Source of the DNA: Chlorobiota bacterium
GTDB taxonomy: Bacteria; Bacteroidota; Ignavibacteria; OLB7
Reading direction: 5' to 3'
DNA length: 37,007 bases
Assembly: GCA_016788565.1 (NCBI GenBank)
Contig: JAEUSP010000016.1
Span: forward strand, 1 to 37,007
How positions within the stretch are numbered: the stretch's first letter is position 1; each line of letters begins with the position of its first letter. Positions 8,154 through 13,949 of the stretch are shown piece by piece. The translations under genes and the position numbers were made by a program. The notes under the pieces are model-generated. The model had not been told where the DNA came from. It did not search any database and saw only the letters and a list, made by a program, of their open reading frames with translations.

Positions 8154-11100
8154 ATGAACTGCTCAACAACGTGGTGCATTGCACCGCGCAGGCTTCGTTT
8201 TGCCCAAATCCTTTCTCTGCTTTTCCTTCTGATAGCCTCGCAGCCACTGCTTGCCCAGCTTTACCCAAACCCCGCCCCAGCGCCGATGGTGGATATTCAC
8301 GGCCACATGGGGGTGGGGACACTTCGCCCCGATTCTTCGGCAATCCTTGATGCGTTCTCCACCGCCAGCGGGTTTCTGCTTCCGCGAATGAACAGCACAC
8401 AGCGTGACCAAATTGCTGGCAATCGCCCGGCAAAAGGGTTGATGATTTTCAATATCCAAACCGACCGCTGCGAGATTAACATCGGCACAAAAGAACGCCC
8501 GCGTTGGGTCCCGTGCCAGATGGTGGATACCAGCGGAAGCCTTGTGATCAACGGCCCAGTTAGCCCCAACGGCGACCCCGGCGACCCGGGCGATCTGTTC
8601 GTTTCGCAGGGGCCGAACAATCCGCCAATCTGGCTTGAGCCGGAAGCCGCCGTCCCCGCGTGGTTTCTGCGCGGCAACGCCAACACCAACCCGGGAACCG
8701 GAACCGGACAGAACTTCATGGGAACCCGCGATAACCGCGATGTGGTGTTTGCAACCGGCGGCGTGGAGCGGGGCAGATTTCTTAGCCCATCCAACGGCGG
8801 TGGGTTCTCCATCACCGGCCCATTTCTGCCGGGCGGAAATGCCGGAACTTCCGGGATGGCGTTGGTTTCCTCCGGCCCCAGCACACCACCAACGTGGCAG
8901 GTTGTTCCCTTTTTGCCAGCTGGCACCCGCAACTTCTCCACGCTGGCGTGGGATAGCGTTGCGGGGATGTGGGTGGAGAACATCAACCTGACCAGCAACC
9001 CCACCAACGGCAACACCGACATCAACGGAAATTTGAACGTTGATGGCAACACCACGCTGAACGGAACTACCGTCTCCATCCCCAACGTGCCGAACGTCAC
9101 TAACGGAACTGAGGTGGTGATTACTGATGCTTCCGGGAATGTGCAAACCATCAACGTCAATGACCTGATTGGCAACGCAACGCTCACCCAAAACGCTATC
9201 TGGGTTGGCGATGCCAGCAATAATCCTGCAGAGCTTCTTTCCACAAACTTGCAAGGCTCGGTGCTGGTCCAGAACGCCAGCGGCGCGCCAACATGGACCA
9301 CGCCGGCAGCCTCACCATTCTGGGCATTGAACGGCAACGCCGGAACCAACCCAGCCAACAATTTTGTGGGAACCACCGACCCTTCCGACTTGGTGTTCCG
9401 CACCGCAAACACCCCACGAATGCGACTTGGCCAGGGGGGGACCGACAACGTGGTAAACATCACCGGAACCCCCGATGCGGTTGTTGGCAACACCAGTGCC
9501 GATGCCGTTTGGGACGTTCGCGTTGCTGGCGACCTGTACGCCAGCGGCATCTTCAAATCGGGCGGCTCGCTCTGGATGGATGGGCGCAACGCCACGCAAA
9601 ACCAAGTCACCAGCGACAACACCTTGTGGATGACCACACGCGGCGCAACCAACGCGCTGGAGCTTCACCTTGATGAGCTTGGAGCGGCAGCGCAGGGGCG
9701 GCGGCGGGTGATGCGGTACGAGCCGAACAACACCAGCGCAAACATCATTGGCGGGTTCAACCTTAACAGCGTGACGGCGGGTGTGGTTGGGGCCACCATC
9801 AACGGCGGCGGAAGCAACGGCGCGGCCAACACGGTGACGGATAATTTTGGGACCATCAACGGCGGCGAAGCAAACCGCGCCGGCGACGCAGGCGGAACCA
9901 CTGCCGACGCACGCTACGCCACTGTGAGCGGTGGATTAAGCAACACCGCATCGGGGGAAAACTCTACTGTTGCTGGCGGCTACTTGAACAGCGCGTCGGG
10001 GCCAAGCAACACGATTGGCGGAGGTCGGCAGAACCAAGCAAGCGATGTCAGCACCACGATTGGCGGAGGGATGCAAAACCGCGCAACCAACAACAACGCG
10101 GTGGTTGCCGGGGGGTCGGGGAATCTTGCCAGCGGGAACAGTTCGGCGGTTGGCGGCGGCGCAAGCAACCAAGCCACAAGCACCAACACCACAATTCCGG
10201 GCGGGGTAAGCAACACCGCAACGCAACTGAACGCCACCGTTGGCGGCGGAAGCTCGAACGATGCGATAGCACAAGGGGCCACCGTTGCTGGTGGTGAGGA
10301 TAACACGGCAGCTGGGGGGGCATCATTTATTGGTGGAGGAGGCAACAACATTGCCACGGGAACCACCAGCAACATTGTTGGCGGGGTCAACAATCGGGTG
10401 GATGGGAATCAAAGCAGCATACTTGGCGGCGACCGCGACACCGTCTTGGGGCCACACAGCATGATTGGTGGCGGAAGGCTGAACAAGGTTATCGCCACAG
10501 CAGATTTTAGCGTGATTGGCGGCGGCCAAAACAACCTGATTAACAACGGCAACAGCGTGATTGCGGGCGGCAACACGAACATTATCAGTGCCGACGGCGC
10601 AGCAATTGGTGGTGGTGGCGAAAATAGAGTAAGCGGGCTAAACGGAACGGTTGGTGGCGGGCAACTGAACAACGCAAGCGGCCAGACATCAGTCATCGCC
10701 GGCGGGCGATTGAACCAAACAACCGAACGTTTCACCTTTGTTGGCGGCGGCGACCGGAACGTGGCATCAGGGCCTGGAGCAGTGGTTGCTGGCGGCGGCG
10801 ATAATGGAGTATTCAGCCCAGCGGGGAACACTGCATCGGGCTTGTCGGCGGCGGTTGTTGGCGGCTACAGCAACACCGCTGCCGGTCACCAGAGCATCGT
10901 TGGCGGGGGGAACAGCAACTCTGCTTCGGCAGCCGCAGCAGGCGCGGCAATTGTTGGCGGCACAGGGAACGTGACCACCGCGAACGAGGCGTTTATTGGT
11001 GGCGGGCGGGGCAATCAAGTAGCGGCACAGTTCGCCTCGGTTGTTGGTGGAAATCTGAATCGAGCACAAAGCATCTACTCGGGGGTGCTAAGCGGACTGA

Positions 11101-13949
11101 ACAACCAAGAGCAGAGCACTGTTGGCGGCAACAATGGAGCCAACGCAATCGTGGGCGGGCGCAATCACTTTGTGAACGGCTCCAGCAACACCATTGCTGG
11201 CGGCGAAAACGACACAGTGATTGGCCGCTTCAGCTTGATTGCTGCCGGAACCGGAAACAACACCAACGGCGACTACCATTTTATCGGTGCCGGAACCAAC
11301 AACCGGATTGTTTCGGGAACCACCAGCAACATCATCGGCGGGAATCTCAATCAGATTACCGGCAACTACAACCTGATCGGCGCGGGCATTGCCAACAGCG
11401 TTGGCGCGGAACACTCCAGCATTGTTGGCGGGCGCAGAAACCAAGTGGCTTCGGTGAATTCCTTCATTGGCGGTGGCGACACTAACTCCATTGCTGCCTC
11501 ATCATTCAACAGCGTTGTTGGTGGCGGCGTGCGGAACAGCATCACCAACCGTTTTGGTGTGATTGGCGGCGGCGTAGCAAACACCATTTCCGGCGATTCA
11601 TCGGCGATTGTTGGGGGGGCAGGAAACCGGGCATCCAACACCTTGAGCTTTGTTGGTGCCGGGCAGTTCAACGTTGCTTCGGGGGCGTACTCGGTGGTCT
11701 CGGGTGGCTTGCGCGACACAGCATCGGGACCCACTGCCACAATCAGCGGCGGCGAACGGAACGTGGCAACCGGGCAAGCATCAACCGTTGGCGGGGGAAT
11801 GGCGAATCGCTCCACAAGCAACAACACAACAGTAGCCGGCGGGTTTGCCAATCAAGCTACCGGGAACTCCACAACAGTTTCCGGTGGATTTAGCAACCAA
11901 GCCACACAGCAATATGGCGTTGTTGGGGGGGGAAGCAACAACCAAGCGACTGCGTTGGCGGCCACAATTTCCGGCGGCACGAATGGAGTAGGAAGCGGAC
12001 AATATGCTGTGATTAGCGGCGGTGAGTCCAATATCTCCAGCGGTTTGCATTCGGTAGTTGGTGGCGGGCTTTCTAATCAAGCGAACGGGCAACAAAGCAC
12101 CGTTGCTGGTGGTGCCGGAAGCCAAGCCGGAGCGTCGTATGCCACCGTGGGGGGGGGGCAAGCAAACGGGGCATTGGATAGCGCATCCACCGTTTCGGGC
12201 GGCCAGAACAATGCCGCACGCGCACGTCACTCCACCGTTTCAGGCGGGTTGTGGAACAGTGCCAACTCACCATTCTCCAGCATTAGTGGTGGCTACGCAA
12301 ACAACATCTTCTCTGCTCAATCATCCCACATTGGCGGCGGTGATTCCAACCAAGTGCTAAGCCCATACTCGGTGATTGGTGGCGGGCGATTCAACTACGT
12401 CAGCAACCAATACGCCACCATCGGCGGTGGCCTTAGCGACACCGCCACCGGGCAAGCCGCAACCATCGCCGGCGGCGAAGGGAACAAGGCAATCGGCGGA
12501 GCTTCAGCAATCGGAGGTGGCTACCAGAATTATGCTACCGGTAGCCTTAGCGTTGTTGCTGGCGGTTTCCAGAATCGTGACTCGGCTGATCAAGCTGGCA
12601 TTGTTTCCGGTTTCACCAACCGCATTGGCCCAACCGGCGCACGCGCGTTTATCGGCGCTGGCTTGGGGAACCGCGCGGGCGGTCCGCAATCGGTGATTGG
12701 CGGCGGCGCAACCAACCAAACAGGCGACACCAGCGATAACGCAGTGATCGGCGGCGGAGCCAACAACGTTGCTCGTGGCCAACATTCCACAATCGGCGGT
12801 GGATATATCAGCCTTACCACTGGCAACTACAGCACGGTTGCCGGGGGCATATCCAACTTTGCCGCTGGCCACGGCTCGTTTATTGGCGGCGGCGGCCCCA
12901 GTGCTGCGGGGGGGCAATTCTCCACAATCGGGGGAGGAGCAAACAATCTTGCAAGCGGCAACTACACCACCATTGCTGGTGGGCATTGGAACGACATTGC
13001 TCCACTGGGCCAATTTGGTGTGGTGAGCGGTGGCCATGCCAACCGAAGCAATGGGGCGTACAGCGTTATCAGCGGCGGCGATTCCAACCAGCTACAGCTT
13101 GCGGATTACTCCATCATCCTTGGCGGCCGCTCCAACTACAGCAGTGGGCTTTACACCACCATTGCTGGCGGGCAGCGGCTAAGCGTTGGTGGCAACAACG
13201 TTTTTGCTTTCCTAGCAAACCCAAACGACTTGCTTCCAATGGGCATCAGCAACAGCAACGTTGCGGCCTTCGGCAATGTTGATCTTTGGTTGGCAAACAA
13301 TCGTGGCCAAGCTGGGCGGCTTTTCTTCTACGAACCGAACTCCGTCACCGGTGGATTTCCCCCAGTGCTTTCGGCCTCGCAGCATTACAGCACCTTCGAG
13401 GCGCAAACGCAGATTGAGAACTACGAGTATCTGCTTCCGGCATCGGCACCAACCGCGCTTCCGGCAAACCATCACGTTCTGGCAATCACCGGCGTTAGCA
13501 CTTCGGGCATCATCTCCGACCTCACCCTCTCGTGGGTTGATAACACCTTGCTGACTTCCGACAAACGCCGCAAGGAGAACATCACCCTGCTGAAAGGTGA
13601 GCCGTTGCTGGCGAAGTTCCATGATCTGGAACTCAGTTCTTGGAACTACATCGGCGATAAGCAGCGGCACTACGGCGTGATGGCCCAGGATTTCTACTCA
13701 GCATTCGGCAACGACGGTGTTGCGCAGATTGGAACTGACACCACCTTAAGCGTGATTGATCTTCATGGTGTTGCCTATCTGGCAATCCAGGGCCTTGAGC
13801 ACCGCACCGCCAACACCAACGACCGATTGAAAAAATTGGAGCAGGAGAACGCCGCGCTTCGCCAGGAGTTGGAGGCCCTGAAAGAAGCCGTGAAAGCAAT
13901 CAACGGAGAAGGGCGGGCCGCAACAGCCGCGCCAGCCATCGAACGATAA
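8154..13949 (+). CDS. Giant secreted beta-roll repeat fibre with C-terminal S74 intramolecular chaperone
   Basis: This is a 1931-residue protein with a Sec signal peptide (about 1-34, ending LLAQ). Residues 35-120 carry a Bacteroidota tail-fibre N-domain style motif (GTLRPDSSAILD, GFLLPRMNSTQRDQI, KGLMIFN), followed by a stalk-like Asn/Thr-rich region. Residues 545-1682 hold about 73 copies of a 15-residue unit, roughly T[VI]xGGxxNxAxGxxS. It resembles the YadA/Hep_Hag head repeat, which folds as a left-handed beta-roll in trimers. Near residue 1798 comes TSDKRRKENI, the hallmark of peptidase_S74. Its Ser and the Lys five residues later form the self-cleavage dyad in endosialidase-type chaperones. 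A coiled coil (KKLEQENAALRQELEAL) follows the chaperone domain. Inference: a trimeric surface fibre whose chaperone is cut off after folding. There is no T9SS domain and no YadA membrane anchor, so the export and anchoring route is unknown. No phage genes are nearby. Confidence 0.88.
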   Translation: MNCSTTWCIAPRRLRFAQILSLLFLLIASQPLLAQLYPNPAPAPMVDIHGHMGVGTLRPDSSAILDAFSTASGFLLPRMNSTQRDQIAGNRPAKGLMIFNIQTDRCEINIGTKERPRWVPCQMVDTSGSLVINGPVSPNGDPGDPGDLFVSQGPNNPPIWLEPEAAVPAWFLRGNANTNPGTGTGQNFMGTRDNRDVVFATGGVERGRFLSPSNGGGFSITGPFLPGGNAGTSGMALVSSGPSTPPTWQVVPFLPAGTRNFSTLAWDSVAGMWVENINLTSNPTNGNTDINGNLNVDGNTTLNGTTVSIPNVPNVTNGTEVVITDASGNVQTINVNDLIGNATLTQNAIWVGDASNNPAELLSTNLQGSVLVQNASGAPTWTTPAASPFWALNGNAGTNPANNFVGTTDPSDLVFRTANTPRMRLGQGGTDNVVNITGTPDAVVGNTSADAVWDVRVAGDLYASGIFKSGGSLWMDGRNATQNQVTSDNTLWMTTRGATNALELHLDELGAAAQGRRRVMRYEPNNTSANIIGGFNLNSVTAGVVGATINGGGSNGAANTVTDNFGTINGGEANRAGDAGGTTADARYATVSGGLSNTASGENSTVAGGYLNSASGPSNTIGGGRQNQASDVSTTIGGGMQNRATNNNAVVAGGSGNLASGNSSAVGGGASNQATSTNTTIPGGVSNTATQLNATVGGGSSNDAIAQGATVAGGEDNTAAGGASFIGGGGNNIATGTTSNIVGGVNNRVDGNQSSILGGDRDTVLGPHSMIGGGRLNKVIATADFSVIGGGQNNLINNGNSVIAGGNTNIISADGAAIGGGGENRVSGLNGTVGGGQLNNASGQTSVIAGGRLNQTTERFTFVGGGDRNVASGPGAVVAGGGDNGVFSPAGNTASGLSAAVVGGYSNTAAGHQSIVGGGNSNSASAAAAGAAIVGGTGNVTTANEAFIGGGRGNQVAAQFASVVGGNLNRAQSIYSGVLSGLNNQEQSTVGGNNGANAIVGGRNHFVNGSSNTIAGGENDTVIGRFSLIAAGTGNNTNGDYHFIGAGTNNRIVSGTTSNIIGGNLNQITGNYNLIGAGIANSVGAEHSSIVGGRRNQVASVNSFIGGGDTNSIAASSFNSVVGGGVRNSITNRFGVIGGGVANTISGDSSAIVGGAGNRASNTLSFVGAGQFNVASGAYSVVSGGLRDTASGPTATISGGERNVATGQASTVGGGMANRSTSNNTTVAGGFANQATGNSTTVSGGFSNQATQQYGVVGGGSNNQATALAATISGGTNGVGSGQYAVISGGESNISSGLHSVVGGGLSNQANGQQSTVAGGAGSQAGASYATVGGGQANGALDSASTVSGGQNNAARARHSTVSGGLWNSANSPFSSISGGYANNIFSAQSSHIGGGDSNQVLSPYSVIGGGRFNYVSNQYATIGGGLSDTATGQAATIAGGEGNKAIGGASAIGGGYQNYATGSLSVVAGGFQNRDSADQAGIVSGFTNRIGPTGARAFIGAGLGNRAGGPQSVIGGGATNQTGDTSDNAVIGGGANNVARGQHSTIGGGYISLTTGNYSTVAGGISNFAAGHGSFIGGGGPSAAGGQFSTIGGGANNLASGNYTTIAGGHWNDIAPLGQFGVVSGGHANRSNGAYSVISGGDSNQLQLADYSIILGGRSNYSSGLYTTIAGGQRLSVGGNNVFAFLANPNDLLPMGISNSNVAAFGNVDLWLANNRGQAGRLFFYEPNSVTGGFPPVLSASQHYSTFEAQTQIENYEYLLPASAPTALPANHHVLAITGVSTSGIISDLTLSWVDNTLLTSDKRRKENITLLKGEPLLAKFHDLELSSWNYIGDKQRHYGVMAQDFYSAFGNDGVAQIGTDTTLSVIDLHGVAYLAIQGLEHRTANTNDRLKKLEQENAALRQELEALKEAVKAINGEGRAATAAPAIER
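9786..13196 (+). repeat. About 73 tandem 45-bp coding repeats (15-residue beta-roll units)
   Basis: Read as protein, the segment consists of about 73 consecutive units with a conserved GG at positions 4-5, Asn at 8 and often A-x-G at 10-12. Most are exactly 15 residues; a few are 14-17 or carry inserts (for example near 10800-10850 and 11100-11150). DNA identity between units is low because codons for the Gly pairs vary, so recombination between distant units should be limited. Units were counted by eye and the total may be off by one or two. Confidence 0.85.
12149..12158 (+). repeat. G10 homopolymer inside the fibre gene
   Basis: Ten consecutive G bases encode the end of Val plus three Gly (TVGGGQ) near codon 1332. 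It is the longest mononucleotide run noticed in the window; G7-G8 runs also occur in this gene (for example 10314-10320, 11925-11932). A one-base slip would truncate the protein before its S74 domain. The frame is intact in this sequence. Confidence 0.9.

Follow-up and report, generated by a model that had tools for sequence, protein, structure and literature searches.

The window, i.e., the whole 37,007-nucleotide stretch of DNA that was analysed, contains a gene for a 1931-amino acid protein that is likely a Sec-exported, trimeric surface fibre whose C-terminal S74 cap templates the trimer and then cleaves itself off. Judged from the domains, the fold matches, the catalytic dyad, the orthologues, and the paralogues, this fibre is probably trimeric, cut, displayed on the surface, and adhesive. 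The gene and its parts are:

8154-13949 (+): the whole gene, encoding the 1931-aa giant beta-roll S74 fibre; ATG start, orthologues in three relatives
8154-8258 (+): putative Sec signal peptide, residues 1-35 (h-region ILSLLFLLIAS; end PLLAQ), from hydrophobicity windows
8259-8537 (+): Bacteroidota-type N-domain, residues 36-128 (MGVGTLRPDSSAILD...GFLLPRM), common to many paralogues in the same genome
9654-9797 (+): roll start or N-cap, residues 501-548 (GRRRVMRYEPNNTSANIIGG), which recurs where the rolls of paralogues start
9798-13193 (+): beta-roll, residues 549-1680, about 75 coils of 15 residues (GGG.N.A.G..S.V), from autocorrelation, the UspA1 match, and folds of trimeric autotransporter adhesin (TAA) heads
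13194-13544 (+): neck module, residues 1681-1797 (FGNVDLWLANN...FYEPN...YLLPA...LSW), also in non-S74 paralogues and a phage tail fibre
13551-13793 (+): S74 intramolecular chaperone domain, residues 1800-1880, from PF13884 and the folds 3gw6, 7dc3, 3gud, and 4uw8
13557-13574 (+): predicted catalytic dyad, with the codons of Ser1802 at 13557-13559 and Lys1807 at 13572-13574, from conservation
13794-13919 (+): C-terminal coiled coil, residues 1881-1922, from the model helix and bZIP/coiled-coil Pfam matches

The strongest hydrophobic stretch of the protein comprises residues 14-34, with the top hydrophobic windows beginning at residues 14-22. A Sec signal peptide is expected at this place, and the one proposed by the sequence-only reading is retained as putative. 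Paralogues on contigs C50, C107, C46, C38, C74, C52, C75, and C77 match residues 19-128. The AlphaFold model of the N-terminal part is poor (pLDDT 34); linker domains lie between the N-domain and the roll start motif. Measured from stop to stop, the frame comprises 1937 amino acids and is the longest among the S74 frames listed from 198 Bacteroidota genomes (the next has 1526), in agreement with the exceptional length first noticed. A still longer frame, of 3768 aa, is found in Bacteroidota bacterium SSF3 (L066, 2011-13314, + strand); it combines beta-roll repeats with an S74 domain and a T9SS-like tail.

The autocorrelation of residue identity peaks at 0.315 at lag 15 and again at lag 30, while most lags are at about 0.07-0.09, roughly a fourfold excess for lag 15. 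The 15-residue period seen in the sequence-only reading therefore holds, but its count of about 73 repeats becomes about 75 coils. Its description of the repeats as head-like was borne out both by sequence and by fold. With a profile of the C-terminal region, the UspA1 head of Moraxella (3pr7) was matched at E=1.1e-7; the match to the neck-appendage chaperone of GA-1 was weak (3gud, E=0.1). The proposed check with the Hep_Hag HMM was negative: the Pfam scan of the fibre returned no Hep_Hag or YadA-head match, and UspA1_rep stayed below threshold (E=0.046).

The AlphaFold model, which covers residues 1530-1931, contains a confident roll (pLDDT mostly 77-91), an S74 fold (core 68-85), and a long helix; the neck is poorly modelled (32-50). 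The roll aligns best with the heads of trimeric adhesins (CbpF, AtaA, BoaA, and EibD; Z 10.6-15.6) and with the ice-binding roll of ryegrass (3ult, Z 12.9). The rmsd of these alignments is 7-8 Å, with unrelated left-handed helices ranking not far below; the large rmsd probably reflects the bend of a long repeat. The match to 3ult, together with a paralogue (L020) that passes the Pfam cut-off for the ice-binding beta-roll, would fit a roll that binds ice or coats the surface and is not the shaft of an adhesin. We consider this reading very unlikely: the fibre in the window has no Pfam ice-binding match itself, the heads of trimeric autotransporters have the same roll, and the S74 domain points to a trimeric fibre. 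If each coil is assumed to add about 0.48 nm, as is general for beta-rolls, about 75 coils correspond to a roll of about 36 nm.

The presence of an S74 domain, initially recognized by eye, was established by HMM: PF13884 matches residues 1802-1853 with E=1.5e-9 and 38.4 bits, well over the curated cut-off of 22 bits. Structural counterparts of the modelled domain are the intramolecular chaperone of the eukaryotic transcription factor MyRF (ICA, 7dc3; Foldseek probability 1.00, Z 6.9, rmsd 2.5 over 99 residues), endosialidase NF (3gw6, Z 6.9), GA-1 (3gud, Z 6.6), and T5 (4uw8, Z 6.6). These four solved S74 structures overlay the model at rmsd 2.4-3.2 over 80-99 residues. The Z scores of 6.6-6.9 are middling, though they were obtained against the expected family. 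Many viral S74 proteins are also among the BFVD structure matches. A coiled coil following the S74 domain, as found here, is typical of S74 trimers.

Ser1802 and Lys1807, spaced by five in TSDKRRKENI, form the predicted dyad. In the aligned ranges of the fold comparison, Ser1802 falls opposite Ser587 of MyRF, the demonstrated catalytic serine of that protein (PMC8326128). Among 143 distinct Bacteroidota S74 domains, the serine is present in 134 (94%) and the lysine in 142 (99%), given as raw counts that ignore kinship. Lys1807 is the most conserved column of the domain and Ser1802 is within the top four; both are also invariant in the four orthologues described below. The dyad can thus be regarded as intact, as the sequence-only reading had it. 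Its assignment of the cut to the Ser-Asp bond fared less clearly. In Bd3182 of Bdellovibrio bacteriovorus, self-cutting at S782 is abolished in S782A, and a fragment comprising residues 632-782 suggests a cut after the serine (PMC10769870); in MyRF, the bond identified by mass spectrometry precedes the serine (P586|S587; PMC8326128). Because these reports differ on the bond, we give the predicted cut as at Ser1802.

In seven of the 143 S74 domains, a cysteine takes the place of the catalytic serine (ICDKNRKENF); examples are L064, L068, L070, and L077, from Chitinophagaceae, Ferruginibacter, and a Bacteroidetes MAG. Such substitutions would fit a cap that trimerises the fibre and stays attached uncut, or one that is cut but remains bound as the adhesive tip. 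More such evidence comes from 18 Bacteroidota proteins, from at least eight family-level groups, that carry a T9SS sorting domain behind an S74 domain with an intact dyad (PF18962 matched 18 of the 20 tails of S74 proteins that were scanned):

9314-11356 (-), G000:C107: S74-then-T9SS protein L003
Further S74-then-T9SS proteins: L029, L031, L033, L066, L118, L125, L139, L147, L157
Further S74-then-T9SS proteins: L161, L168, L170, L175, L179, L180, L181, L182

If the cut preceded export, the stalk would lose its T9SS signal. In these proteins, S74 would therefore fold and cut only outside the cell, or the pieces would remain associated, or no cutting occurs; this implies that some S74 domains in the phylum must not cut before export, and an intact dyad is no proof of early cutting. 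No paper on this pairing of S74 with T9SS signals turned up in the literature search. However, few S74 columns are as conserved as the serine and the lysine, and cutting does occur in the relatives that have been tested, MyRF (PMC8326128) and Bd3182 (PMC10769870). We therefore regard a cap that stays in place as the less probable, if serious, alternative to self-cleavage and release. With S74 found in 57 of 198 Bacteroidota genomes, and with 13 S74-ended surface fibres in Bdellovibrio (PMC10769870), the domain on a cellular fibre is not the oddity for which it had been taken.

The fibre in the window is itself not a candidate for T9SS export: its tail has no PF18962 match, in line with the first impression, and inspection by eye revealed no continued frame behind the stop. 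The T9SS channel SprA is present in the genome, and the window contains two genes with weak T9SS tails. The absence of a YadA anchor, also noted from the letters alone, extends from the fibre (Pfam) to the whole genome. Because it has no such anchor, the fibre is not a type Vc autotransporter.

No phage genes were found across the entire 37-kb contig, and a search of the whole genome did not find a Baseplate_J gene, which upholds a cellular, non-prophage setting. The surroundings are not surface genes alone, as had been suggested, but mixed. Named by eye from their translations, they include argC, an IPP isomerase, and a ribulokinase-like gene; the contig also encodes a response regulator, a PorV-family protein, a TonB receptor, two proteases, and a DUF1800/DUF1501 pair. 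In the same genus, synteny is retained on the downstream side (fni, araB, a BNR gene, and an M12B gene).

A tail fibre encoded on an IMG/VR contig with a terminase gene shares a short roll and the neck with the fibre in the window, and starts without a signal peptide (L097, 4656-6527, + strand, about two kilobases from the terminase gene). The roll-neck is therefore a module common to phage and cell. Another phage contig encodes a small virion protein that looks membrane-anchored and contains an S74-like stretch (L098, 5287-6201, + strand). The shared module, and the frequency of S74 in tail fibres generally, could suggest that the gene belongs to a prophage or a contractile injection particle and encodes its tail fibre. 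This is highly improbable given the putative signal peptide, which the related phage fibre does not have, the retained synteny, and the lack of any PHROGs match for the fibre itself; the gene content of the contig and the genome-wide absence of Baseplate_J largely refute such an origin.

The sequence-only reading proposed a search for the same architecture in related genomes, and orthologues were found in three relatives. The one from the same genus is full-length and 91% identical, with no change in length. Two diverged orthologues of 2043 and 2082 aa are from another genus of the family, and their C-terminal regions are 43-44% identical to that of the fibre in the window. The serine and lysine of the dyad are invariant in all four sequences, the window fibre included. 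The diverged orthologues (G002 and G004) have another N-domain, of the LPRLLSYQGVL type; N-domains have therefore been exchanged among orthologues. Most of the relatives with names are MAGs from Bacteroidota that bear the label Chlorobiota, Ignavibacteria, or Kapaibacterium, and the host thus probably comes from this section of the phylum.

The host genome is a draft assembly in 137 contigs, fragmented at repeats. Besides the fibre gene, it contains about a dozen frames with a roll, whose C-terminal ends fall into at least seven unrelated kinds; the number of frames is an estimate because several are cut by contig ends. The nearest in layout is a paralogue of 1949 aa (L013) with the same N-domain, roll, and neck, and a different end. 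At L013 (3931-16581, - strand, G000:C107), two giant roll proteins of 2267 and 1949 aa with non-S74 ends are adjacent, and the second shares the N-domain of the window fibre. Only one other S74 gene is present in the genome; it has no roll, and a T9SS signal follows its S74 domain and coiled coil. Since the paralogues share the roll and have other ends, S74 is one of several interchangeable ends, and some rolls do without it. The tips of L022, L028, L013, and L012 have no Pfam name. Two of these paralogues (L022, 2680-6141, and L028, 4426-8001, both - strand) end in an unnamed domain (MAVGNGDIWVTDQGG...PGDYLITSTIPGYAMR) followed by a coiled coil; by eye, and with no Pfam match, this domain looks like another phage-type autoprocessing domain.

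Under the favoured reading, three chains would come together through the S74 domain and the coiled coil at the C-terminus, and these would template the trimer. The neck and the coils would then zip into a trimeric rod of about 36 nm resembling UspA1 and YadA heads. The Ser1802-Lys1807 dyad would cut at Ser1802 and free the chaperone, leaving the neck exposed as the tip of the fibre, with the N-domain probably at the cell surface. The fibre would probably serve adhesion and belong to a set of roll fibres whose tips are swapped, much as in the fibres of Bdellovibrio.

Well outside Bdellovibrio, bacterial surface fibres routinely include folding chaperones of the phage type, and these can be joined to autotransporter-type beta-rolls of extreme length. 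The fibre in the window has neither of the expected outer-membrane routes, the YadA barrel or the T9SS signal, despite SprA in the genome, and it matches none of the export routes known; this makes its export testable. As a tentative generalization, on which we would not yet rely, this Bacteroidota lineage may build trimeric adhesins from autotransporter-type rolls in which the barrel is replaced by interchangeable tips, including a self-cutting, phage-type S74 domain. If true, this would be a class of fibres that crosses, and is anchored in, the outer membrane by an undescribed route.

The closest known system is the mosaic adhesive trimer (MAT) superfamily of Bdellovibrio bacteriovorus (Caulton et al. 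2024; PMC10769870). It comprises 21 surface fibres with a signal peptide and a conserved, beta-rich N-domain of ~130 aa; 13 of them have an S74 end and 8 a different tip. Compared by layout, the fibre in the window resembles the MAT S74 subgroup (Bd3182 and others): it is encoded by the cell and has a putative signal peptide, a conserved N-terminal part, and a C-terminal S74 domain with SDxxxK. In both genomes, S74 and non-S74 members occur side by side with swapped tips, and no phage genes are needed. By analogy, the fibre would work like a MAT fibre. However, MAT shafts are intertwined beta-helices or prisms of about 1000 aa, whereas the window fibre, at 1931 aa, has a UspA1-like beta-roll of about 75 coils. 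The two are from different phyla, and the likeness, which covers the domain layout, makes the fibre at most a candidate member of the superfamily.

The 15-residue GGG.N.A beta-roll is shared with the heads of UspA1 and YadA-type proteins, by sequence (3pr7) and by fold; in contrast to trimeric autotransporters, S74 at the C-terminus replaces the membrane barrel. The S74 fold and the dyad with its spacing of five are shared with phage proteins (endosialidase NF, 3gw6; the T5 L-shaped fibre, 4uw8; GA-1, 3gud) and with the eukaryotic MyRF ICA (7dc3). Those domains sit on phage fibres or on a membrane transcription factor, whereas here the domain sits on a bacterial beta-roll. Ordinary Bacteroidota S74 proteins, e.g., from Ferruginibacter and Chitinophagaceae, also combine head-like repeats, S74, and a coiled coil, but they are much shorter (400-600 aa) and some have cysteine for serine. 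With the MAT fibres known, a cellular S74 fibre is largely unsurprising; what is new is the exceptional length, the UspA1-type roll in place of a beta-helix, and the lineage.
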